Both the position numbers and the translations under genes were made by a program. Positions 9,094-60,126 of a stretch of DNA of 64,000 bases are shown here, piece by piece (within the stretch, counting starts at the first letter, position 1; each line of letters opens with the position of its first letter). This DNA is from Oscillospiraceae bacterium (GTDB taxonomy: Bacteria; Bacillota; Clostridia; Oscillospirales; Acutalibacteraceae): NCBI GenBank assembly GCA_015065845.1, contig SVPQ01000003.1, positions 62,001 to 126,000 on the forward strand, written 5' to 3'. The notes beneath the pieces were generated by a model that saw only the letters and a program-made list of their open reading frames with translations, was not told the origin of the DNA and did no database searches.

Positions 9094-10875
9094 TTACATA
9101 TCACTGAAACCTGCACCATCAAAGAAGTAATAAAGTAAATCGCTGATAAGTTTAAATATTGTTGCAAGATAGTCGTTGAAATCAAGACCACCTGTGTATT
9201 CTTTTTCTGCACCGTAAATTATTTCATCACGAGTGTCATAGAAATATGCTTTTGCCGCTTCAAACTCTGCTAAATCCACATTTGTTTGTTCAAGTGCTTC
9301 TTCGCCACGCTCAATAGCGTTCTGGAATCTCGCTCTTTCATCTTCTGTGAGATAAGACAAATCCAACTTCTTAGCTTCTTCAAGGTCTTTCATAAAACCT
9401 TTTGAATCTCTTGCAATGTTGAATTGTGGGAATCTATCAGGGTAACTGTAAACATCTGTAAAGTTTTCATCCACAAGAAGTTCAGAAACAAGTTTCATAA
9501 TAACATCGTTTGAAGCTGTTCTTTCGTGGTCCTGATTGTAGAAATAGAATGTTGTACACGGAAGAAGACCTGTATTTGCATCAACAATATTTCTTGGGTC
9601 ACTGTGGTCGTGATTTGGATTTGTGCAGTTATTTACTGTGCGTACATAATCTGCAGGAAGTTCTTTACTAACACCCACACTATATGCACCCATTGATGTT
9701 GAATCAAGTTGAATAATACCATCAGCATTAACATCATCCCATGAATCAACGATTTCATAAAGAGAAATGTTGTAGTCAACAATATCAAAGATGTCAACAC
9801 CCTGTGCTTTTGCATCTAAAATATTAGCATCAGAATTTTTCTGTGCATTATAGAACCAATCTGTCTGTTCACGGATTACTGCCATTGAGTCATCCATTAA
9901 ATACATTTCTCTGCAAGGCTCATAGTTAGCTGATGGAACTAAACCCCACATAAGAGTTGAGTACCTCATATAATCATTTACAAGATCAGTTACTACGGTG
10001 TCAAGAATTGCGTTAAGATCGGCATTAGGCATAATACGGAGAACTATATTCACAAGATAGCCAGTCATTTCACCAACACCCATAAGTGCAGGAAGCATTT
10101 TACTGTAAAGTTCTTCATCGTCATCAATAAGACCGTACTGATAAATTTCACCAATTAAAATTGAACCATCGAGCGCAGGAACAACATAAACTATTCTGTT
10201 AATATCTTCGCTATACGCTCTACCATTATCTTTATAAAGTTGCATAACAGCATTCATAACAGAACCGCCCTGACTTATCGGAACTACATTAACTTTGTCA
10301 GAGCCAGAATCTTCTTTAACAAACTGAATAAAATCATAAAGTTCCTGTGCGGTATCTTTCATATTGCCTAAAGAAGCGTATGAAAAAACATAAAGATTTT
10401 CTTCGCCTGCTAACTCGATATACTTATTAAGCGGTAACTGGTCAAGTATGTATTCCTGATCATACTCACTTAAATCTCTGAACGAATCATAATACTTTGT
10501 TGCTCTTACATCATTTATAAATTTACCGTTTTCATCACTTTTTGATTTACCCATAAGAGCTTCACCCAAAACTCCAGAAAGAGCTTTTGCTGCCTGCTGG
10601 TCTTTATCTTCTTGTGAAATAAGTAATTTACTTATAGGTACAAGTGCTTCTGTAAGTGCTACACTAGCAATTTCCATAGTGTCATCCATAAAGAAAGGTG
10701 GTTCTAAGTCAGTTGCTACACCATCTTCATAATACTTTGTTTCGCTCTGAAAAACGCCAGGAACAATTATACTTGGCGTTGGTTTGTAATTTGCAGCACT
10801 TGCCGCTACCATAAATGTGGTAGAAAGCATAACTACTGCTAAAACTAAAGATATAATTTTCTTTGATTTCTTCAT
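9094..10875 (-). CDS. secreted alpha/beta-hydrolase-like protein
   Basis: This 593-residue protein has a clear signal peptide (MKKSKKIISLVLAVVMLSTT, cut near ASAANY). The start of the mature protein (PTPSIIVPGVFQSETKYY) resembles the first strand and oxyanion region of lipases and esterases. VPISQGGSVMNAVMQLY supplies a nucleophile-elbow-like Ser at about residue 200, within an ISQGG pattern rather than strict GxSxG. HERTASNDVIMKLV may provide the catalytic His region. The C-terminus (about 490-570) is helical and acidic. I read it as an exported lipase/esterase-type hydrolase of unknown substrate. ATG 10875 follows AGGGGATAGG; the 13 codons upstream in frame lack a site. Confidence 0.6.
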   Translation of the reverse strand: MKKSKKIISLVLAVVMLSTTFMVAASAANYKPTPSIIVPGVFQSETKYYEDGVATDLEPPFFMDDTMEIASVALTEALVPISKLLISQEDKDQQAAKALSGVLGEALMGKSKSDENGKFINDVRATKYYDSFRDLSEYDQEYILDQLPLNKYIELAGEENLYVFSYASLGNMKDTAQELYDFIQFVKEDSGSDKVNVVPISQGGSVMNAVMQLYKDNGRAYSEDINRIVYVVPALDGSILIGEIYQYGLIDDDEELYSKMLPALMGVGEMTGYLVNIVLRIMPNADLNAILDTVVTDLVNDYMRYSTLMWGLVPSANYEPCREMYLMDDSMAVIREQTDWFYNAQKNSDANILDAKAQGVDIFDIVDYNISLYEIVDSWDDVNADGIIQLDSTSMGAYSVGVSKELPADYVRTVNNCTNPNHDHSDPRNIVDANTGLLPCTTFYFYNQDHERTASNDVIMKLVSELLVDENFTDVYSYPDRFPQFNIARDSKGFMKDLEEAKKLDLSYLTEDERARFQNAIERGEEALEQTNVDLAEFEAAKAYFYDTRDEIIYGAEKEYTGGLDFNDYLATIFKLISDLLYYFFDGAGFSDM

Positions 10876-10926
10876 TTTACCTATCCCCTTTTGGTATTTG
10901 AATTTAAGTTGCACTTAATCAAAAAT

Positions 10927-10955
10927 AGTATACCATATTTTCCTTAAATTTGCAA
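10927..10955 (-). promoter_or_regulatory. promoter of the secreted hydrolase
   Basis: On the minus strand TTGCAA (10955-10950), a 17-base spacer and TATACT (10932-10927) lie about 50 bases before the start codon. Confidence 0.7.
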
Positions 10956-10967
10956 GAGAAAAAATCA

Positions 10968-11116
10968 AGGAACCAGGAATCAGGAACCAGGAACTAGTTG
11001 AATTTTAAAATAAAATGCATTCTATCATTTAAAGTTCTTCGTAAACTAAATATGATAGAATGCATTAATTTTCATTCAACCTAGTTCCTAATTTCTAATT
11101 CCTAGTTCCTGATTTA
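10968..11116. repeat. heptamer-armed hairpin element (locus A)
   Basis: The left arm is AGGAACC, AGGAATC, AGGAACC, AGGAACT, AGTTGAA (10968-11002), five exact 7-base units. The right arm (11075-11116) has TTCAACC, TAGTTCC, TAATTTC, TAATTCC, TAGTTCC, TGATTTA, the reverse complement in style but with its own unit variants. Between them is a 13-bp stem (11015-11027 with 11053-11065) containing CTATCA, with inner AGTT/AACT (11033-11036 and 11044-11047). With the next hairpin this accounts for most of the 420-bp gap between the hydrolase and glpK. No gene is seen in the gap. Confidence 0.8.
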
Positions 11117-11215
11117 CCATTCAAGCGTAGCTTGATGTGCAAATTTGATGATAGTTGGCTTTTGCGAATCCCCGAAGCGTATCGCAACAAGATTGATGTG
11201 TTAGTTGTGATTTAG

Positions 11216-11277
11216 TTCGTGTTTTTTATGTCCCGAAGCGTACAAAGGTACGCGAGTTTGGGCATAAAAGGCACGAA
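11216..11277. repeat. large hairpin with GCGTACAAAGGTACGC loop, glpK 3' side
   Basis: An imperfect stem (11216-11238 with 11257-11277) closes on a loop containing the palindrome GCGTACAAAGGTACGC. The same loop sequence, slightly changed, sits in the big hairpin at 52054-52162. It lies just downstream of glpK on the coding strand, so it may work as its terminator. A related CCCCGAAGCGTATCGC occurs just before it at about 11170-11185. Confidence 0.65.
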
Positions 11278-11294
11278 ATAAACGCAAATAACCA

Positions 11295-12800
11295 TCAAGC
11301 TTCTTCCCAATTCATTGAACATTTGACTGCCTTATGCCATCCCTTAAGCATTTTTTCGCGTTTATCGGTGTTCACATTTGGAATAAAGATTCTGTCAACT
11401 TCACGGTCTGTTTCAATTTCTTCTAAACTATTCCAGAAACCTACTGCAAGACCTGCCATATAAGCAGCACCGAGGGCAGTTGTTTCAACAAGTTTTGGTC
11501 TGTTTACTTTAGCACCTGACATATCTGCCTGAATCTGAAGCATTACATTACTTACAGATGCACCACCGTCAACACGGATTTCTGAAATGAGAATTTCACT
11601 ATCCTTTGACATAGCTTCAATTAAATCTGTAACCTGATAGGTTATACTTTCAAGTACTGCTCTTGCAAAGTGTGCACGGTTTGTACCACGGGTAAGACCT
11701 ACAATACAACCACGGGCATACATATCCCAGTAAGGTGCACCAAGCCCTGTAAAAGCAGGTACTAAATAAATACCATTTGAATCAGGAACGCTTTCTGCTA
11801 AGAAGTCACATTCAGATGGTTCTGAAATCATACGAAGTTCATCACGAAGCCATTTAATAACTGAACCGGCATTAAATGCACTACCCTCTAAATCGTAAGT
11901 AACCTTACCGTTAAGTCCCCACGCAATACCTTCAATAAGTTGGTTTTTAGAGTGAATTCTCTTGTCACCTGTATTCATAAGAAGGAAGCAACCAGTACCA
12001 TAAGTGTTTTTTGCCTGACCTGCATTAAAACAAGCCTGACCAAAAAGTGCAGACTGCTGGTCACCGATAGCACCGCCAATAGGAATACCGGCGAGTGAAG
12101 AAAGCCCAGGTAAATTATCTGCAATTTCGCCATAAATAGCACTTGACTCTTTAACTTCAGGTAACATACTCATAGGAATGCCTAATTTATTGCAAAGGTT
12201 TTCATCCCATTGTAATTTCTCAATATCAAAAAGCATTGTTCTTGAAGCGTTACTGTAATCGGTAACATGCACCTGTTTATTTGTAAGATTCCATATAAGC
12301 CATGTTTCAACTGTACCGAAACAAAGTTTATTCTCATTAGCTAAAGTTCTTGCTTCAGGAACATTGTCTAAAATCCATTTGATTTTTGTTGCAGAGAAGT
12401 ATGCATCTATTAAAAGTCCTGTATGTTCTTTAACATAAGGCTCAAGACCCATTTCTTTTAATTTTTCACAAATAGGTGCAGTTCTTCTGCATTGCCATAC
12501 AATAGCATTATAAACAGGTTTACCTGTTTCTCTCTCCCAACAAATAGTTGTTTCACGCTGATTTGTAATACCGACAGCGGCAATCTCTTCAGGATTTATA
12601 TTACCATTCTGTAAAGCAACCTGTAATGAATGGAGCTGACTTTCCCAGATTTCATAAGGGTCGTGCTCAACCCAACCACTTTTTGGATAAATCTGTGTGA
12701 ATTCAAATTGTGCTTTTGAAACGATGTTACCTTTTTTATCAAAAACAATCGTTCTTGAAGAAGTAGTACCCTGGTCAAGTGCTAAAATATATTTCTTCAT
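11295..12800 (-). CDS. glpK: glycerol kinase
   Basis: This 501-residue protein phosphorylates glycerol to glycerol-3-phosphate with ATP in the cytoplasm. It matches glycerol kinase along its length: [16 protein letters not shown] at the N-terminus (FGGY ATP-binding motif), [40 protein letters not shown], and the C-terminal FGGY signature region ([17 protein letters not shown]). AAAGGTGATG precedes the ATG. The gene follows the dockerin protein by 19 bases and is probably the last gene of the malQ-HAD-dockerin-glpK unit. No glycerol facilitator or glpD is adjacent, which is unusual for glpK. Confidence 0.95.
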
Positions 12801-22380: not shown

Positions 22381-23408
22381 ACAACATAGAATTTTTTAAA
22401 AATGCGGGCTACGGAATGATGATGCATTTCGGACTTTACTCCATTTTAGGTGGCGAATACAAAGGTAAATTCGGTGATAATTATGCCGAATGGATTGGTT
22501 CACACTTTGCTATTCCTTTAAAAGAATATGAGCAACTTGCAAGTATATTTAACCCGATTTATTTTAATGCGGATGAAATTATTAAACTTGCAAAAGACTG
22601 CGGAATGAAATATTTTGTAGTAACCACAAAACACCACGATGGTTTTGCACTTTTTCACTCAAAAGTTGATAAATATAATGTTGTTGATGCAACACCTTAT
22701 AAACGCGATATTATTTACGATTTGGCAAACGCGTGTAACAAACACAATATAAAATTAGGTTTTTATTATTCACAGGACCTTGACTGGCACGAAAAACATG
22801 GTGGCGGATACCTTTCAAATCATTTAGGTTGCTCCGGTGTCACATGGGACAACAGTTGGGATTTCCCGAATCCCGAAGAAAAAGATTTTAATATCTGTTT
22901 CGAGAATAAAATATTGCCACAAATCAAAGAGATTATGACAAATTATGGTGATATTTTTACCGCGTGGTTTGATGTGCCAATGACTTTAACTGAAAAACAA
23001 AGCAAAATTATTTATGATACTGTAAAAGAATTACAACCCGATTGCCTTATAAATTCAAGGCTCGGTAACGGACTTTATGACTATGTTTCTTTAGGTGATA
23101 ACGAAATCCCCGAAACAAAAGAAGAATGGCAAAAACTTTCACAAGTAGATGAAAAAAATATTAACTACCAGAGTATTGACGGTTTTAAACCAAGTAAATA
23201 TAATCTTTATGAATCTGCTTGTACATTAAATAATTCGTGGGGATTTTCTTACCGTGACCACAACTGGATTTCACCAGAAAAATTAGCCCAGAACAGAAAA
23301 CACTTAAACTCACTCGGAATTAACTACCTTGTGAATGTCGGCCCTGACCATTTAGGAAGAATACCGGGACCGTCCATTGAAATTCTGAAGCAAGCTTCAG
23401 AATTATAA
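22377..23408 (+). CDS. GH29 alpha-L-fucosidase
   Basis: This 343-residue enzyme releases alpha-linked fucose by a retaining mechanism. GH29 features seen: MMMHFGLYSILGGEYKG (11-30), TTKHHDGFALFHS (83-95), FYYSQDLDWHEKHGG, and the nucleophile Asp in AWFDVP at about residue 199. It ends soon after the barrel (NYLVNVGPDHLGRIPG), so it lacks the C-terminal beta-sandwich of longer family members. There is no signal peptide, so it acts on imported oligosaccharide. It overlaps the upstream gene by ATGA. With GH123 next door, the operon could remove both fucose and GalNAc from host-type glycans; that pairing is an inference. Confidence 0.88.
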   Translation: MNNIEFFKNAGYGMMMHFGLYSILGGEYKGKFGDNYAEWIGSHFAIPLKEYEQLASIFNPIYFNADEIIKLAKDCGMKYFVVTTKHHDGFALFHSKVDKYNVVDATPYKRDIIYDLANACNKHNIKLGFYYSQDLDWHEKHGGGYLSNHLGCSGVTWDNSWDFPNPEEKDFNICFENKILPQIKEIMTNYGDIFTAWFDVPMTLTEKQSKIIYDTVKELQPDCLINSRLGNGLYDYVSLGDNEIPETKEEWQKLSQVDEKNINYQSIDGFKPSKYNLYESACTLNNSWGFSYRDHNWISPEKLAQNRKHLNSLGINYLVNVGPDHLGRIPGPSIEILKQASEL

Positions 23409-23652
23409 TTCGGAATGCGTAATTCGGAATTCGGAATTATAATTAAATATGGATAAAAACAACTACATTCTCTCATTTATGATTAAACCAAAAATGAAAG
23501 AATGTAGTTGTTTTTATTATATTAAAATCGCGTCGCAGACCCTTCAATTCCGAATTACGCATTACGCATTCCGAATTAAAAGCGAAACCCTGATTCCTAG
23601 TTCCTAATTTCTGTTTCCTATTTCCTTGCCACTTGCAACTTGCACACTTGCA
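23407..23652. repeat. heptamer-armed hairpin element (locus B)
   Basis: The left arm has five 7-base units (AATTCGG, AATGCGT, AATTCGG, AATTCGG, AATTATA; 23407-23441). Then comes a 24-bp stem with one mismatch (23455-23478 with 23492-23515), the spacer GCGTCGCAGACCC (23530-23542), and a right arm that reads in reverse complement AATTCGG, AATGCGT, AATGCGT, AATTCGG. Further heptamers of other words follow without losing phase: TTCCTAG, TTCCTAA, TTTCTGT, TTCCTAT, TTCCTTG and then CTTGCAA-type units to 23652. This fills the gap between the fucosidase and the convergent small membrane protein; no gene is seen in it. Confidence 0.8.
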
Positions 23653-23674
23653 ACTGAACTGACAACTCTAGTTC

Positions 23675-24085
23675 CTATTTCATAAGGTCATCTGTAAGAC
23701 TGATTATTTGCGGGGCGATTTTTTTGCGTTCTTTCTTTACAATGCGATTGTACACGGGGTGTGCAATACCCGCTAAAATAATACCCGCTACACCAAGAAC
23801 AATTCCAATAAACATATTATGATTTTTTATAAACTCACCAAGGTTTTCTGCTAAATCTGTCATTACAAGACTCATACCAGAACCTAAAATCAAAACACCG
23901 ATAATGCCTATGACAAGTGAAACACTTGTTGCTTTTTTTGTGACACTCTCATCAAGTTTTTTTAACTGCTCCAGCTTATTTTCCGTTTTTTCTTCGGGTA
24001 AATATTTTTCTCTTATCCTTTTAATTTCTGCCTGTTCTTTTGCAGAATAAGTAAATTCAAAGGTCTCTTTTTCGTTATTTGTCAT
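23675..24085 (-). CDS. small two-helix membrane protein, paralogue of 26807-27172
   Basis: This 136-residue protein has a charged N-terminal helix (EQAEIKRIREKYLPEEKTEN), two membrane segments (SVSLVIGIIGVLILGSGMSL and FIGIVLGVAGIILAGIAHPV), and a basic C-terminal tail. GSGMSLVMT and the DELTALD/KLDESV-type helix are shared with the protein at 26807-27172, so the two are paralogues flanking the two-component system. The start overlaps the upstream membrane gene by 11 bases. Function unknown; it is the last gene of the RR-HK-membrane-protein operon and could be part of its output or sensing. Confidence 0.8.
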   Translation of the reverse strand: MTNNEKETFEFTYSAKEQAEIKRIREKYLPEEKTENKLEQLKKLDESVTKKATSVSLVIGIIGVLILGSGMSLVMTDLAENLGEFIKNHNMFIGIVLGVAGIILAGIAHPVYNRIVKKERKKIAPQIISLTDDLMK

Positions 24086-24956
24086 TTTTTAACTCCTTAA
24101 TTTTTTTACCACCTGAAACAATCATATAAATTGCCATAGCAACAATAAAAATTGAAATTACGCCACCTGTTACACCCAGTAAAATTTGCCTTGTCAATAA
24201 ATCCATTGTGCCATCACCAAAGGTTGTAAGCATTGTTGACTCGAGTGTAAGCATTGACACACACGCCGCCGCTAAATTTATTGCTTTTGATGCCGAATAG
24301 ACAGGGCTTTCGTATTTTCTGAATTTCACAATACCCCTTATTGCTATTACAAGTGAAGTAAATGTATATAAAGCCATAGCAATAGTTGTTATTTCGTGAT
24401 GATTAAAGGTTCTGTTCCAATACACCTTAAAAAACACCATTACTGCAAGTGACAAATTCACCAAAAGGAATACTACTCCACAAGCACGATATTTTTTAAG
24501 CTCGATTATCATTTTTTCACCTGGCTGATATTTTCTTGTGTAACGAACCAAGAAAAACCGCATTAAAACAAGCGAAAAATAATACCCGGATAATGTTAAA
24601 AACCAGAATGTTTTATGATAGAACCCCAACCACAACATAAATATTGCATAAACTGTATTTAATATAAGCGACTTGTAAAGTGATACATTTACTCTTAAAC
24701 GGGTATCACTGTTCCAGCGAAGCAAATATTTATTTTCATTATTAAAATTTCTGAAAAACCTGATTGAATCTGGTATTTTAAAACACCAGATTGTCAATGT
24801 ATAAGCAGAAACCACATAAGAAATTATTGCAACAACTGAATCTGATTCAAGTTTAAGCATTGAATAAATCAGAAATGCTACTGCCACAGGAATTAAAATG
24901 AACATTACAGCAATATGCGGAAATAATAATACTCTAAAAATTTTTTTCCAATTCAT
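24075..24956 (-). CDS. multi-pass membrane protein linked to a two-component system
   Basis: This 293-residue protein has about eight hydrophobic segments (for example ILIPVAVAFLIYSMLKL, ISYVVSAYTLTIWCFKI, VVFLLVNLSLAVMVFFKVYW, ILLGVTGGVISIFIVAMAIY) and short charged loops. I do not recognise the family. It begins one base after the histidine kinase stop codon, and its end overlaps the 136-residue protein gene. It is either the sensor partner of the kinase or its regulated target. The paired organisation (regulator, kinase, polytopic protein, two-helix protein) argues for one functional module. Confidence 0.8.
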   Translation of the reverse strand: MNWKKIFRVLLFPHIAVMFILIPVAVAFLIYSMLKLESDSVVAIISYVVSAYTLTIWCFKIPDSIRFFRNFNNENKYLLRWNSDTRLRVNVSLYKSLILNTVYAIFMLWLGFYHKTFWFLTLSGYYFSLVLMRFFLVRYTRKYQPGEKMIIELKKYRACGVVFLLVNLSLAVMVFFKVYWNRTFNHHEITTIAMALYTFTSLVIAIRGIVKFRKYESPVYSASKAINLAAACVSMLTLESTMLTTFGDGTMDLLTRQILLGVTGGVISIFIVAMAIYMIVSGGKKIKELKNDK

Positions 24957-24957
24957 T

Positions 24958-26031
24958 TTACATTCTCCGTATTTTTACTGTAAATGTTGAACCCACACCG
25001 AGAGTGCTTTCTACACTTATTTCACCCTGCATAATATCCACCACTCTTTTTACAAGTGCAAGACCTAAACCGTTTCCTTGTGAAGAATGAGAAGTATCTC
25101 CCTGATAAAATTTTTCAAAAATATGCTTTCCTACTTCTTTTGACATACCACAACCGGTATCCTGCACCTTAACAACTGCGAAACTTTCAGTTGTTTTTAA
25201 CGATACACTTACTTTACCGCCTGGTTTTGTAAATTTGAATGCATTTGAAAACAAGTTATTCCACACAAGGCTTAAAAGCTCTGCATCGGCTTTTACTTTT
25301 ACATCTTCTTCTATATCCGTATCAATCTCTATTTCTGATTTTTCCCAGATGTTTTCAAACTGTAAAAAGCACTCGCAAAGCTGCTCTCCGAGGTCATATT
25401 CAGTAATTTCAGGATAAATCTGCTGATTTTCAAGTCGGTTGAGTTTTAATATATTTGTCATCATTTCTGCAAGACGTCGTGAACCATCTGTAACGCCTTT
25501 TGCATACTCAATTCTTTTTTCTTCTGATAAATCCGGTGCTTGTAAAAGTGTTCCGTAATTTCTCATTACTGCAAGTGGTGTTTTCATTTCGTGAGAAACA
25601 TTTGCAATAAAATCTGTTCTTAATGTTTCTACACTACCGAGCTCTTCTGTCATTTTATTAAAGCAATCAATAATCTCAGAAAATTTTTCATCTACACCAA
25701 GATTTTTAACAGGCTCAATTCTTACAGAAAAATCTCCTTCAACCACTTTTTTTGCTGCATCTACAATATGCTTTGTGATTTTTTCGGTTGTGAGCTTACG
25801 ACGAATTGCATCAATGACAGTAAATAAAATACTGAGAAGAATTACGTTTAAAAAAGTAACTTTTGCCGCCGCTTCAATATTTTCTGTTGTTAACTCAAAG
25901 TTTAACGTACTTGAAAAGATACTTATAAAAAGTGAGGTTGTGCAAGTAACAAGGAATGCAACAAGGAGAAAAAACATTAAATAATTATAAACTGCACGCG
26001 ATATTTTATGAAAAATATTACTGTGTTTCAC
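24958..26031 (-). CDS. sensor histidine kinase
   Basis: A 357-residue kinase with two N-terminal membrane segments (about 15-38 and 57-75) and a very short outside loop, which suggests sensing within the membrane or through a partner. A HAMP linker (about 76-135) comes next. The HisKA phospho-acceptor is H147 in NVSHEMKTPL. The HATPase domain has the N box (LVWNNLFSNAFKFTKPGG), G1 (VQDTGCGM) and G2 (GNGLGLALVKRVVDIM). It passes phosphate to the regulator encoded just upstream, with which it overlaps by 4 bases. Confidence 0.95.
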   Translation of the reverse strand: MKHSNIFHKISRAVYNYLMFFLLVAFLVTCTTSLFISIFSSTLNFELTTENIEAAAKVTFLNVILLSILFTVIDAIRRKLTTEKITKHIVDAAKKVVEGDFSVRIEPVKNLGVDEKFSEIIDCFNKMTEELGSVETLRTDFIANVSHEMKTPLAVMRNYGTLLQAPDLSEEKRIEYAKGVTDGSRRLAEMMTNILKLNRLENQQIYPEITEYDLGEQLCECFLQFENIWEKSEIEIDTDIEEDVKVKADAELLSLVWNNLFSNAFKFTKPGGKVSVSLKTTESFAVVKVQDTGCGMSKEVGKHIFEKFYQGDTSHSSQGNGLGLALVKRVVDIMQGEISVESTLGVGSTFTVKIRRM

Positions 26032-26699
26032 TTAATCACCGCCTTGTAACCCAAACCATGAACTGTAACAATCTGAAAAGATTCGCAAGAAGAAAGTTTG
26101 GTGCGGAGTTTTGTCATATAAACATCAACTGCCCTTGGTGCTGTGTCAGTATCAGCATCCCAGAATTCATCCATAAGCTGAGTTCTGGTGAATGTCTTTT
26201 TGGGGTATGAAAGCAGTTTATATAAGATGTTGAATTCTCTGTGTGTTAAAGATATTTCTTCACCATCGATGTATGCAGTACGTTCATCTGCATCCATTGA
26301 AAAATTGCCAATTTCAAGTTTTCTGCTTGAAGCGATTTTTGCGCGTCTTAAAAGTGCACCAATTCTTAAAAATAATTCGTCAAGGTCAATAGGTTTCACC
26401 ATATAATCATCAACACCTATACGGAAACCCCTCTCTTTTGAAGCAATATCATCACGGGCAGTCATAAAAAGAATTGGAATATTATCGTTTAAATCTCTTA
26501 CATTTTTTGCGAATTCAAAACCATCAACACCTGGCATCATTATGTCTGAAATAATTGCATCAAAGATATTTTCGTAAAGAGCATCATACGCTTCATTGGC
26601 ATCAAGACAACCAACCGCTTCATAACCGCTGTGATTTAAAAACGAACAGACTGTTTTATTAAGTTCTTTATCATCTTCAACAACTAAAATTTTAAACAT
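26028..26699 (-). CDS. OmpR/PhoB-family response regulator
   Basis: This 223-residue regulator has a receiver domain with acidic residues near 9-10 (VVEDDKEL), the phospho-acceptor Asp at about 52 (SDIMMPG), Thr at 80 (FMTARD) and Lys at about 102 (MVKPID). A winged-helix DNA-binding domain follows (LEIGNFSMDADERTAYIDGE, LTHREFNILYKLLSYP, DVYMTKLRTKL, VTVHGLGYKAV). It is first in the operon with the kinase, the polytopic membrane protein and the two-helix protein. AGGTA-type binding sequence precedes the ATG. Targets are unknown, but the unit at 26807-27408 directly upstream, carrying a paralogue of its fourth gene, is a natural candidate. Confidence 0.95.
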   Translation of the reverse strand: MFKILVVEDDKELNKTVCSFLNHSGYEAVGCLDANEAYDALYENIFDAIISDIMMPGVDGFEFAKNVRDLNDNIPILFMTARDDIASKERGFRIGVDDYMVKPIDLDELFLRIGALLRRAKIASSRKLEIGNFSMDADERTAYIDGEEISLTHREFNILYKLLSYPKKTFTRTQLMDEFWDADTDTAPRAVDVYMTKLRTKLSSCESFQIVTVHGLGYKAVIK

Positions 26700-26770
26700 A
26701 AAATACCTCCGTGCACTATCATTTTATTATATAATAACACACAAATGTTAAAGTTTTGTTTCTGTTTTAA

Positions 26771-26804
26771 AAAAGTGAGATGATTTTTTCATCATCTCAC
26801 TTTT
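26771..26804 (-). terminator. terminator between small-protein unit and two-component operon
   Basis: A perfect 14-bp stem (26771-26784 with 26791-26804) with T-rich minus-strand tail lies 3 bases after the 121-residue gene, separating it from the response regulator unit. Confidence 0.9.
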
Positions 26805-26806
26805 CT

Positions 26807-27172
26807 TCAGGCTTTCATAATTTCGTCGCTTAATTCAATAATTTGCTTTGAATATTTTTTGCGTCTTTTGTAAAGTATTTTTTTGTAACTCGGATAGTTA
26901 ATAATTGCCATTAACATACCAACTACACCAATTATAATTCCTGACATCATTCCGTTTTCAATTCCTAAAACAGAACCGATTTCTGTCATAACAAGACTCA
27001 TACCACTACCCATAATAAGTGCTGAAATGCTACCGAAAGTGTAACCAAATATGTTAGCAGTTTTTTTCACTTTACGGTCTAACGCTGTTAATTCATCGAG
27101 TTTTGTGTTTTCTTTTTCTGTGTACTGTGTGCGGATTTTCTGCACGAGAAATTCTTTATCGTTTTTATTCAT
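26807..27172 (-). CDS. small two-helix membrane protein, paralogue of 23675-24085
   Basis: This 121-residue protein has a charged N-terminal helix (KDKEFLV-like, then YTEKENTKLDELTALDRKVK), two membrane segments (NIFGYTFGSISALIMGSGMS and MMSGIIIGVVGMLMAIINYP), and a basic tail (RRKKYSKQIIELSDEIMKA). It shares GSGMSLVMT and the C-terminal SL(T/S)D(D/E)(L/I)MK ending with the protein at 23675-24085. It follows the 71-residue helical protein by 20 bases. Function unknown. Confidence 0.8.
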   Translation of the reverse strand: MNKNDKEFLVQKIRTQYTEKENTKLDELTALDRKVKKTANIFGYTFGSISALIMGSGMSLVMTEIGSVLGIENGMMSGIIIGVVGMLMAIINYPSYKKILYKRRKKYSKQIIELSDEIMKA

Positions 27173-27192
27173 TTTAATCTTCCTTTCTGTTT

Positions 27193-27408
27193 TCAGATGT
27201 TTTTTGAAAGTCTTTGTTTTGCTTCTTCGACTGTTTCATTTTCTTTTTTGAAAAGTTTTTCAACGCATTTATCAGCTACTTTTTCAAAACCTTCAACAGC
27301 ACCATTTTCGATTTTTTTGTAGCCGTTCACTACACCGTCTTCGATTTTCTGATAACCTGCTACTACCTTTTCTGCGATTTTTTCATTTGCTTCTATAAAT
27401 TTTGACAT
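27193..27408 (-). CDS. small amphipathic-repeat protein
   Basis: This 71-residue protein consists of an imperfect 11-residue repeat: KVVAGYQKIED, GVVNGYKKIEN, GAVEGFEKVAD, then a helical end (KENETVEEAKQRL). The pattern G-x-V-x-G-Y/F-x-K-I/V-E-D/N gives an amphipathic helix that could lie along a membrane or pair with similar helices. Small proteins of this type are common in gut Clostridia and have no assigned role that I know of. GAAGGGAG precedes the ATG. It is first in a two-gene unit with the two-helix membrane protein. Confidence 0.8.
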   Translation of the reverse strand: MSKFIEANEKIAEKVVAGYQKIEDGVVNGYKKIENGAVEGFEKVADKCVEKLFKKENETVEEAKQRLSKNI

Positions 27409-27501
27409 TTTGAAAACTCCCTTCGTGTTTTGTTATGTCTGCATTATATCTTCGTGTTGTTTTTGAGTTTTTTACAAAATGTTTCTGTTTTATTAAAAAA
27501 T

Positions 27502-27541
27502 AAAAATCACTGTCTGAATTTCAATCCAAACAATGATTTTT
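27502..27541 (-). terminator. terminator of the metallophosphoesterase operon
   Basis: A 12-bp stem with one mismatch (27502-27513 with 27530-27541) and T-rich minus-strand tail, 11 bases beyond the gene end. Confidence 0.75.
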
Positions 27542-27552
27542 TTGTCATTTAT

Positions 27553-28800
27553 TTATTCTTCAGGAATCTCAGCAAGTTGTGTCATTTCTTCCATATTAAC
27601 TACTTCTTTCTCGAATTGAGAAATATATTTGTCCTGATAATAGTTTTCATTCTGACTTGTGAAACTGCCATCTGGTGAATATGTAATGACTTTACAACCG
27701 CGTTGTGCGCCTACTTTTGAAATACCAATGTACGCGAGATAGTCAATACTCATTCCGTATGATAATTGAATACCCTTATACTCAATACTGAAATTATTTT
27801 CGTGGTCGTGACCACAGAAAATACCTTTTGTTGACCCTAACTCAAGCATAGTTTCAAAAAGAGCATCTTCACCCTCTCCTGTGAAAACAATTACGCCATC
27901 TTCACCTGCAACACCATGAATAAACTTTACATTTTCGGTGTCTTTAAAATCGTTTTTTACATATTCGTACCATGCATCCCGATATTCTGTTAACGGAATA
28001 TGGAAAAATGCAGTTGAACTTGGAACAGGATTTTTCATATCTGAAACCGATTTATTATATGCAGTTAATTCTTCCACACAATTTCTGTACCACTCAACCT
28101 GACTTTCACGGATATTTTCGTAACCATGGCCAAAACCTAAAATATCGTGTCTTAAATATGAATGACTGTCAAATGTAAAAATTGACTGGGTAATTTCGCC
28201 TTTGGAATTCTTAATATTTATAATATTGTTGCCATAACCGTCTACATCTTCAAGACCGCTTTTGAAAAGGCAATATTTAAAGCCTCCATTTTCATAAAAC
28301 TCTGCGATTTCTGCCCTGTCGTAATCGCTGTATATTTCTGTGTCGTGGTTACCAAAAGTAACTGTCCAGTAAATGCCGAGTTTTTCCATAAGACTTGCAA
28401 ACATCTTTGCAGAAGCCAAGTTATCATCTGTACCCGCCTGAGGTGGTACCGGGTAAGCAATGTCACCTGTAACAATTACCAAATCAGGTTTTTCTGCAGT
28501 TACCATTGCCGCAACTGCATTGAGCGCTTTCAAGTCTTTAAAATGAGACATAAATCCCGCACCAATGTGAACATCTGTAAGTTGAACTACTTTAAAATCT
28601 CTGTCCGTTGTAAAAGTCCAGTAACCGTTTTCATCTTCAACCGGCACTATCCTGTTTTCAATTTTTACCTGTTCAAAACTTTCAATTTTTTTCATATTGC
28701 TGTTCTTGCCCACAGTAGTTATCAATGAAGTTACTGCAAAAAACAATACAACAACTGCAAGAATAATTCCAACAATTTTAAAAAACAATTTCCCTTTCAT
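27553..28800 (-). CDS. membrane-anchored calcineurin-like metallophosphoesterase
   Basis: This 415-residue protein has an N-terminal signal anchor (FFKIVGIILAVVVLFFAVTS). The phosphoesterase motifs run in order: QLTDVHIGAG (D-x-H), VTGDIAYP (GD), TFGNHDTE (GNHD), FHIPLTEY, and FCGHDHENNF (GHDH). All metal ligands appear present, so it should be active outside the membrane on a phosphate ester or nucleotide. AGAGGTG precedes the ATG. It is the third gene of an operon with a HAD phosphatase and a DUF1349 protein, 24 bases behind the latter. The substrate is not known. Confidence 0.88.
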   Translation of the reverse strand: MKGKLFFKIVGIILAVVVLFFAVTSLITTVGKNSNMKKIESFEQVKIENRIVPVEDENGYWTFTTDRDFKVVQLTDVHIGAGFMSHFKDLKALNAVAAMVTAEKPDLVIVTGDIAYPVPPQAGTDDNLASAKMFASLMEKLGIYWTVTFGNHDTEIYSDYDRAEIAEFYENGGFKYCLFKSGLEDVDGYGNNIINIKNSKGEITQSIFTFDSHSYLRHDILGFGHGYENIRESQVEWYRNCVEELTAYNKSVSDMKNPVPSSTAFFHIPLTEYRDAWYEYVKNDFKDTENVKFIHGVAGEDGVIVFTGEGEDALFETMLELGSTKGIFCGHDHENNFSIEYKGIQLSYGMSIDYLAYIGISKVGAQRGCKVITYSPDGSFTSQNENYYQDKYISQFEKEVVNMEEMTQLAEIPEE

Positions 28801-31723: not shown

Positions 31724-31843
31724 TTTTGTTCTCCTTTTACGATAATTTTTAAGTTTCAATTTCTTTGATTATAGCATTAAAACACTTCAAAATCAATTAT
31801 TAATGATTCATTGAAAATCCGTTTTAATGAATGACAAAAAAGT

Positions 31844-31872
31844 AAAAATCCCCGTATAGTACGAGGATTTTT
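31844..31872 (-). terminator. terminator of the XRE regulator at 31896
   Basis: Stem AAAAATCC (31844-31851) with GGATTTTT (31865-31872), plus inner CGTA/TACG, with T-rich minus-strand tail. Confidence 0.8.
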
Positions 31873-31895
31873 GGTCTAATTATTACTAACAAATT

Positions 31896-43917: not shown

Positions 43918-43934
43918 TATTTCGCTTCGCTCAA

Positions 43935-44030
43935 GTGAAGAGTGAATAGTGAATAATAAATAGTTTCGGGTCTGCGACGCTATTATAAAAAGACAAAAAC
44001 AGGTGCCGTAACTTTCAGTTACTGGCACCT
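43935..44030. repeat. heptamer element with terminator-like hairpin (locus F)
   Basis: Units GTGAAGA, GTGAATA, GTGAATA, ATAAATA (43935-43962) are followed by GGGTCTGCGACGC (43968-43980), the exact reverse complement of the spacer in locus B. Then comes an AT-rich stretch and a hairpin (44001-44012 with 44018-44030, one bulge) that probably terminates pnp. Only one heptamer arm is present. Confidence 0.7.
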
Positions 44031-51995: not shown

Positions 51996-52162
51996 AATTC
52001 GGAATGCGGAATGCTTAATTCGGAATTATCACATTCTGCCCGATATACCCTATAATTTTGTTCAGAAGTGCTCAGGTTTGGTTTTTAGCGACCCCGAAGC
52101 GTACAAAAGGTACATGAGTTCGGGTCGATAAAAGCCAAAGATGAGTGCTTATGAGCAAAATT
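51996..52162. repeat. heptamer run plus 44-bp imperfect hairpin (locus G)
   Basis: Units AATTCGG, AATGCGG, AATGCTT, AATTCGG, AATTATC (51996-52030), the same words as locus B, then a large stem (52054-52098 with 52119-52162, roughly four in five bases paired) closing on GCGTACAAAAGGTACATG, the loop seen at 11239-11256. It covers the end of the transketolase gene and would act as a terminator or attenuator in the cluster. Confidence 0.78.
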
Positions 52163-59133: not shown

Positions 59134-59262
59134 TAATGCAAAATTCAAAATGCAAAATGCAGAATTTCGGAAACGCTTCGCGTTTGATTATAATTATAAG
59201 TGAACAGAAACAAAAATATCCTATCATTTTTCAGTTTTTAACTAAAAATGATAGGATATCTA

Positions 59263-59960: not shown

Positions 59961-60099
59961 AATAACACAAAAAACATCCTATCATTTAGGTTTACAAAAA
60001 ACTTTAAATGATAGGATGAACTTATTTTATTGAATTGTAATTACAATCAAACGCGAAGCGTTTCCGAAATTCTGCATTTTGCATTTTGCATTCTGCATT

Positions 60100-60126
60100 C
60101 AGTAAAAAGGTTTTACCTTTTTACTG
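60100..60126 (-). terminator. hairpin at the end of the giant surface protein gene
   Basis: CAGTAAAAAGGT (60100-60111) pairs with ACCTTTTTACTG (60115-60126), loop of three bases. It covers the stop codon, and its outer arm abuts the inverted-repeat element. Confidence 0.7.

Follow-up and report, generated by a model that had tools for sequence, protein, structure and literature searches.

The DNA analysed here, referred to as the window, is a stretch of 64,000 nt of contig SVPQ01000003.1, to which window coordinates refer; the genome that contains it is designated G000. An element named Locus A (10968–11110), in which opposed arms of 7-base units flank a hairpin, as a sequence-only reading of the window had described, separates the 3' end of the glycerol kinase gene (glpK, FGGY family; 11295–12800, minus strand) from the promoter-like pair of the gene that comes next on that strand. 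The left arm (10968–10997, plus strand) has AGGAAYY units in the order AGGAACC AGGAATC AGGAACC AGGAACT AG, with the G-rich strand running toward the core. The right arm (11080–11110, minus strand), which faces the 3' end of glpK, reads AGGAACT AGGAATT AGAAATT AGGAACT AGG as its reverse complement. That reading named the unit variants of the two arms correctly, but its count of five units on the left and six on the right needs revision: each arm holds four complete units plus part of a fifth. The core hairpin (family A, 11014–11066; ATGCATTCTATCATTTAAAGTT...AAATATGATAGAATGCAT) has homologues that recur intergenically throughout the genome. Folding of Locus A gave energies of -64.0 kcal/mol on the plus strand and -76.1 kcal/mol on the minus strand, compared with -21 and -28 kcal/mol for shuffled sequences, none of which folded equally well. 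On the far side of the left arm is an open reading frame of 606 codons (9094–10914, minus strand; likely start ATG at 10875) with a signal-peptide-like N-terminus and no match in Pfam; its 5' side faces the arm. The promoter-like pair of this frame, TTGCAA-17-TATACT (10927–10955, minus strand), is conserved in the sister species G018 and in genome G021, and the left arm begins 13 bp upstream of it. The hairpin and its T-rich flanks form a putative terminator; the terminator scan flagged none. A search of Rfam gave no family above the gathering score, only sub-threshold matches to microRNA precursors of the sort that long hairpins give. Locus A is not peculiar, being one instance of a genome-wide feature.

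A sister element in the window is built in the same manner. Its left arm (23407–23438, plus strand) reads AATTCGG AATGCGT AATTCGG AATTCGG AATT, an order of units that recurs nearly identically at several loci; its core is a hairpin of family C (23453–23517), and its right arm (23546–23577) is of the AATTCGG type on the minus strand. Outward of that arm lie AGGAAYY (23592–23626) and TTGCAAG (23625–23655) tracts, likewise of C-rich polarity. The window also holds, on the plus strand, an AGTGAAT-type array 3' of a stop codon (43934–43964) and an AATTCGG-type array (51996–52027), together with two AATGCAR arrays, one on the plus strand (59135–59165) adjoining a core hairpin at 59216–59259 and one on the minus strand (60069–60100) adjoining a core hairpin at 59975–60018. 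Arms and cores are combined as a mosaic within G000: one core occurs with differing arms and one arm type with differing cores, and homology between loci frequently stops inside the heptamer tracts. G+C-rich triloop hairpin modules are common to several G000 loci. In the window they lie between heptamers and core at 11132–11270, 23515–23545, 43965–43985, 52090–52115, 59165–59190 and 60040–60065, with sequences such as GTCTGCGAC and ACGCTTCGCGT (GACCTGCGGTC and GTTCGCGTAGCGAAC in relatives); the few that we inspected have a GNA loop on the strand that leads away from the centre. A second dispersed palindromic module, TTTCTCGTTTGCG...ATATCGC...GGATTTATATCGC, was seen in L018 (5264–5355 and 5818–5909) and L016 (18874–18968 and 19439–19533), one pair being 100% identical over 92 nt.

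We examined period and array length in 427 kb of G000, comprising the window and 20 further stretches, with 41.7 kb assigned as intergenic by simple ORF calls. Most of the stretches had been picked at AGGAACY matches, a choice that inflates the AGGAA family and not the others; the unselected window agrees with the whole. The period-7 check proposed in the sequence-only reading returned 75 intergenic arrays, where dinucleotide shuffles averaged 0.3, and autocorrelation concurred, with strong self-match positions almost exclusively at 7, 14, 21, 28 and 35. Seven was the sole strongly enriched period in the sampled intergenic DNA; periods 4, 5, 6, 8 and 10–13 gave 0–2 arrays each and period 9 gave 7. 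The pattern AGGAACYAGGAAYY, allowing at most one mismatch, was found in 181 places and the reversed pattern in none. More than ten unrelated unit families are present in G000 alone (AGGAAYY, AATGCAR, AATTCGG, AATTGAA, TTGCAAG, CTAACAC, ACTCAGC and AGTGAAT among them), a handful of which recur at dozens of loci. The mode of array length lies at 30–33 nt, i.e., four units and 2–5 nt, into which fall 42 of the 108 arrays in G000, 24 of 51 in genus relatives and, at loci of other phyla among the matches listed and with the searched-for arrays removed, 51 of 179. Arrays of period 6, 8, 9 or 12 lack this mode. The longest G000 arrays reach 157 nt, with about 20 units in L016 and 22 in L018, and units shift gradually along individual arrays. 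A search pattern with a spacer of 30–60 nt between the arms found nothing, because the arms in G000 are about 80 nt or more apart.

The arms obey a polarity rule. Where G-rich and C-rich arrays share a gap, the G-rich array came first in 76 of 79 cases and the reverse order was seen in 3, so that the G-rich strand points inward; the split was 25:1 in G000, 14:1 in relatives and 37:1 in other phyla among the matches listed. Inverted pairs of a single family were G-rich inward in 65 cases and C-rich inward in 1, with 1 tied. Neighbouring same-family pairs in G000 were inverted in 24 of 27 cases, and in all 24 the purine-rich strand ran toward the core. The rule is the same in tandem, convergent and divergent gaps, which excludes transcription direction as its cause, and it is symmetrical about the gap centre, so replication direction cannot produce it either. 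Quadruplex formation as a common feature was ruled out by families that have no GG runs. A 7-nt mini-hairpin with a 2-bp stem and a 3-nt loop, tried by hand as a rule for the unit, fits AGGAACT, AATGCAA, AATTCGG, AATTGAA and TTGCAAG but not AGGAAAC, AGTGAAT or CTAACAC, and was rejected. The sequence-only reading had further held that period and pairing are kept while sequence is not. Period is kept, as are arm length and polarity; conserved pairing of arm with arm is weakly supported at best, and we dropped it. Compared unit by unit, the two arms of a locus resemble each other slightly more than they do arms from elsewhere (p = 0.07 when units are counted from the inner end and 0.026 from the outer end, n = 12), and the differences between arms show a bias in favor of G-U pairing in the sense strand, one that is not decisive across loci.

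Comparison with G018 revealed changes at these sites. The G018 genome is 97% complete, most aligned blocks are about 86–93% identical to G000 at the DNA level (∼90%), and a GlpK fragment is 98% identical. Ten orthologous sites in these species-level genomes were judged by eye: six carry another heptamer family in G018 (two of these six calls rely on short G018 arrays), two differ by presence or absence, and two retain the same family. At Locus A the arm family is kept around different cores (A in G000, B in G018 and G021), and at L015:13742 a TTGCAAG arm and its core are retained in G018 and the right side is replaced. Site 23407 has AATTCGG in G000 versus AATTGAA in G018; site 43934, AGTGAAT versus opposed AGGAAYY arms with core A; site 51996, AATTCGG versus AATTGAT/AATTAAG-type and AGTGAAG-type tracts; L015:19874, AGGAAYT versus degenerate GCTGAAT-like units; L028:6077, AGGAAYY with core A versus AATTGAA with core C; and L028:10122, AATGCAR versus two AATTGAG-type units. 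The AATGCAR array at 59135 corresponds to no array in G018, and the full opposed element at L015:5989–6148 to a plain spacer. Heptamer elements in G018 are likewise numerous and dispersed. The family of heptamers changes while the flanking genes stay intact to their ends. At L015:5989, the single case of a present/absent site examined for insertion marks, we found no target duplication, and ∼40 nt of spacer had been replaced. Comparison of L015 5985–6000 with G018:C29 (L220) places the left border of the element over the last codons of the gene, where native G018 AAAGAATTGGGA resembles the unit AAGGAATTAGGA and the G000 stop codon lies inside the array. Several heptamer sites, in few cases overall, are synteny breakpoints. 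Separately, ∼4.1 kb of G000 (window 23407–27554) corresponds to ∼170 nt in G018 at a heptamer site, and further gene insertions adjoin the heptamer sites at 43919 and 59109. In G018:C13 (59290–59730; L179), a conserved terminator hairpin contains, relative to window 31840–31880, an inserted cluster of palindromes with ATATCACT/CAGTTTTAT between them.

The arrays extend well beyond the genus. In the genome collection, at least 118 stretches hold four consecutive AGGAAYT units, several of these stretches coming from one and the same genome, and the matches listed include Bacillota, Bacteroidota, Cyanobacteria, Acidobacteriota, Patescibacteria, Verrucomicrobiota, Planctomycetota, Spirochaetota, Chloroflexota, Pseudomonadota, Campylobacterota and others. 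The loci among those matches held 234 period-7 arrays and, multiples of 7 aside, no more than 22 at any single period, with additional heptamer families nearby; their cores are unlike the genus hairpin or consist of few bases (many gaps of 2–30 nt). Triples of AGGAAYY were present in 6 of 22 genus genomes, G000 included, and in 1 of 38 more distant relatives. Viral carriage was rejected as a candidate, the 2.9 million contigs of IMG/VR yielding 10 stretches with four AGGAAYT units.

The anatomy of the elements, their period, preferred length and polarity, and the swaps and mosaics at their loci are observed features. To explain them we favor, with about an even chance of its being right, a reading in which the elements are modular and intergenic, copies from dispersed relatives take the place of existing arms and cores, and the hairpin serves as a transcription boundary. 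Each element would comprise two opposed tracts of ∼31 nt (four degenerate heptamers and a partial one) around a core that, in the genus, is usually a member of a dispersed hairpin family and probably acts as a terminator or boundary between neighboring transcription units. Arms and cores would be exchangeable modules, acquired from other loci where cores and arms in common allow non-allelic recombination or conversion, or else moved by a mobilizing factor, and the outcome would be a genome-specific set of heptamers in which the type at a site changes and the flanking genes remain intact. Copying as the route of turnover is suggested by sequence comparison of species-level genomes, in which no donor-recipient event was seen directly. 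Growth out of a local seed would account as well for the L015 element, with no target duplication and a border on unit-like native sequence. Module copying explains the swaps and the mosaics; it does not explain period 7, the number of about four units or the inward G-rich polarity in unrelated phyla, and since cores in other phyla are unrelated or nearly absent, copying through shared cores cannot be the whole story. Tentatively, and at well below even chances, we consider that a general process common to several phyla, with no need of the reverse transcriptase, Ku or Y1 transposase looked for here, may lay down opposed ∼31-nt tracts, G-rich strand inward, and repeatedly rewrite gaps while sparing genes.

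Several other explanations were weighed against these two. Polymerase slippage alone, in which a local 7-nt duplication grows and shrinks and the polymerase footprint favors seven, is in our estimation unlikely. Slippage does act on some arrays, as the very long arrays in L016 and L018 and the gradual change of units indicate; the L015 border resembles a native seed, and the footprint idea would yield period 7 in every phylum. Nevertheless, slippage cannot set a length mode near 31 nt in place of a steady fall-off, a strand polarity around the gap centre or family swaps at orthologous sites, and the same few families at dozens of loci per genome also speak against it. The view of the sequence-only reading that simple slippage is insufficient is thereby borne out. 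Polarity for every gene orientation is what synthesis centred on a break would give, if heptamers, whether templated or slipped, were added to both 3' ends over ∼31 nt, with the strand toward the break G-rich, and the ends were rejoined around filler. Such synthesis would permit a different family on each side (e.g., L035, L065 and L132), and fits both rewriting up to a stop codon and arrays at several synteny breakpoints. Set against it, Ku was undetected in G000 and G018 and was present in 1 of 22 genus genomes, so that Ku end joining was discarded as a candidate; a reverse transcriptase domain (RVT_1) was undetected in G000, G018, G021 and G011 and present in 4 of 22 genus genomes; and the cores in the genus are homologous and hence not random filler. 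These absences weigh little for G000, which like G021 is about 82% complete, and more for G018. We regard break-centred synthesis as improbable, to the same degree as slippage alone.

The RVT_1 result bears most heavily on a telomerase-like reverse transcription that writes heptamers off an RNA template, an origin that is largely refuted for Pfam-detectable reverse transcriptases and that we consider scarcely credible. Its attraction is that polarity recalls telomere G-strands and that the DRT10 reverse transcriptase system produces short tandem-repeat DNA from an RNA template (PMC12632851). The DRT10 products, however, are not genomic arrays; they are cDNA, mostly single-stranded and linked to protein, and the repeat of the system studied is 9 nt long (PMC12632851); no reverse transcriptase domain was detected in the array carriers, and more than ten unit families per genome would require equally many templates. 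The arms might instead be Chi-like DNA sites read by a host factor and oriented toward a centre that is fragile or undergoes recombination, with four repeats as the minimum. This would accommodate polarity and the four-unit mode, both independent of gene direction, but more than ten unrelated families in one genome, with no factor identified, make it quite doubtful. REPINs are inverted pairs of short dispersed intergenic modules, made of paired REP sequences and associated with RAYT transposases, and REPIN- or MITE-like elements mobilized by a Y1 (RAYT) transposase would match the small, intergenic, inverted, dispersed and hairpin-bearing form seen here. The arms here, however, are heptamer tracts, and Y1_Tnp was undetected in G000 and G021 (each about 82% complete), with no associated RAYT detected in the former. 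G018 does have a RAYT-like Y1 transposase gene (L208, G018:C32, 962–1711, minus strand), but its own flanking repeats are CATAGAACCGTCCCCTG and not heptamers; Y1/RAYT mobility was set aside as the probable driver. The single empty site showed neither a target-site duplication nor a clean empty site of the MITE kind, and we judge such mobilization highly unlikely. A RAYT-like relative occurs in G011 (L209), and long Y1 matches were seen in G020 and G006.

The elements, with degenerate 7-bp tandem units that are mainly intergenic and dispersed, belong with the heptameric intergenic SSR/STRR class. Cyanobacterial STRRs, as cited in PMC4692102, are also degenerate 7-bp intergenic tandem repeats, with three heptanucleotides in Calothrix, and the same source cites a 2007 study for over-representation of heptamers in bacteria and for the polymerase-footprint idea. 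We found no opposed polarity across families, fixed arm length or hairpin core in the heptamer papers compared here, in which the original STRR work figures by citation. The GGGAATC heptamers of Xanthomonas and the GGGGA(T/C)T heptamers of Nostoc have period 7, are degenerate and intergenic, and mostly form four units; there are 70–75 close convergent pairs, with arrays near the 5' neighboring ORF, i.e., with the G-rich strand inward (PMC4692102). The G000 arrays resemble these pairs in being opposed and G-rich inward with a four-unit mode. They differ in that the earlier study treated a single G-rich family per genus as G-quadruplexes, whereas G000 has many families, of which AGGAAYY and AATTCGG have GG only and AATGCAR and AATTGAA no GG run, short of the G-tracts for three-tetrad quadruplexes. 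Nor is the repeat preserved site by site between close species, as it would be in the Xanthomonas type: the family changed at 6 of 10 G000/G018 sites. TAACTGA heptamers of Beggiatoaceae, Cyanobacteria and Bacteroidetes are intergenic and common to distant phyla by an unknown mechanism, but are mostly direct repeats before start codons, with one indirect repeat in the main genome (PMC4679880), whereas the G000 arms are opposed. The heptamer class, the four-unit mode and convergent pairs are thus already known for one unit family. Relative to PMC4692102 and PMC4679880, what appears to be new is that many families share a single rule of polarity, that the feature spreads so widely and its length mode holds in other phyla too, that cores form hairpin families, and that orthologous sites exchange one heptamer family for another.

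Intergenic heptamers have been noted in bacteria since the cyanobacterial STRRs with no accepted origin. A fixed period, a preferred length, a fixed polarity and family exchange are together hard to square with slippage, and this combination of rules points to an unrecognized way of rewriting intergenic DNA. The rules of size and polarity make the question testable in culturable strains.
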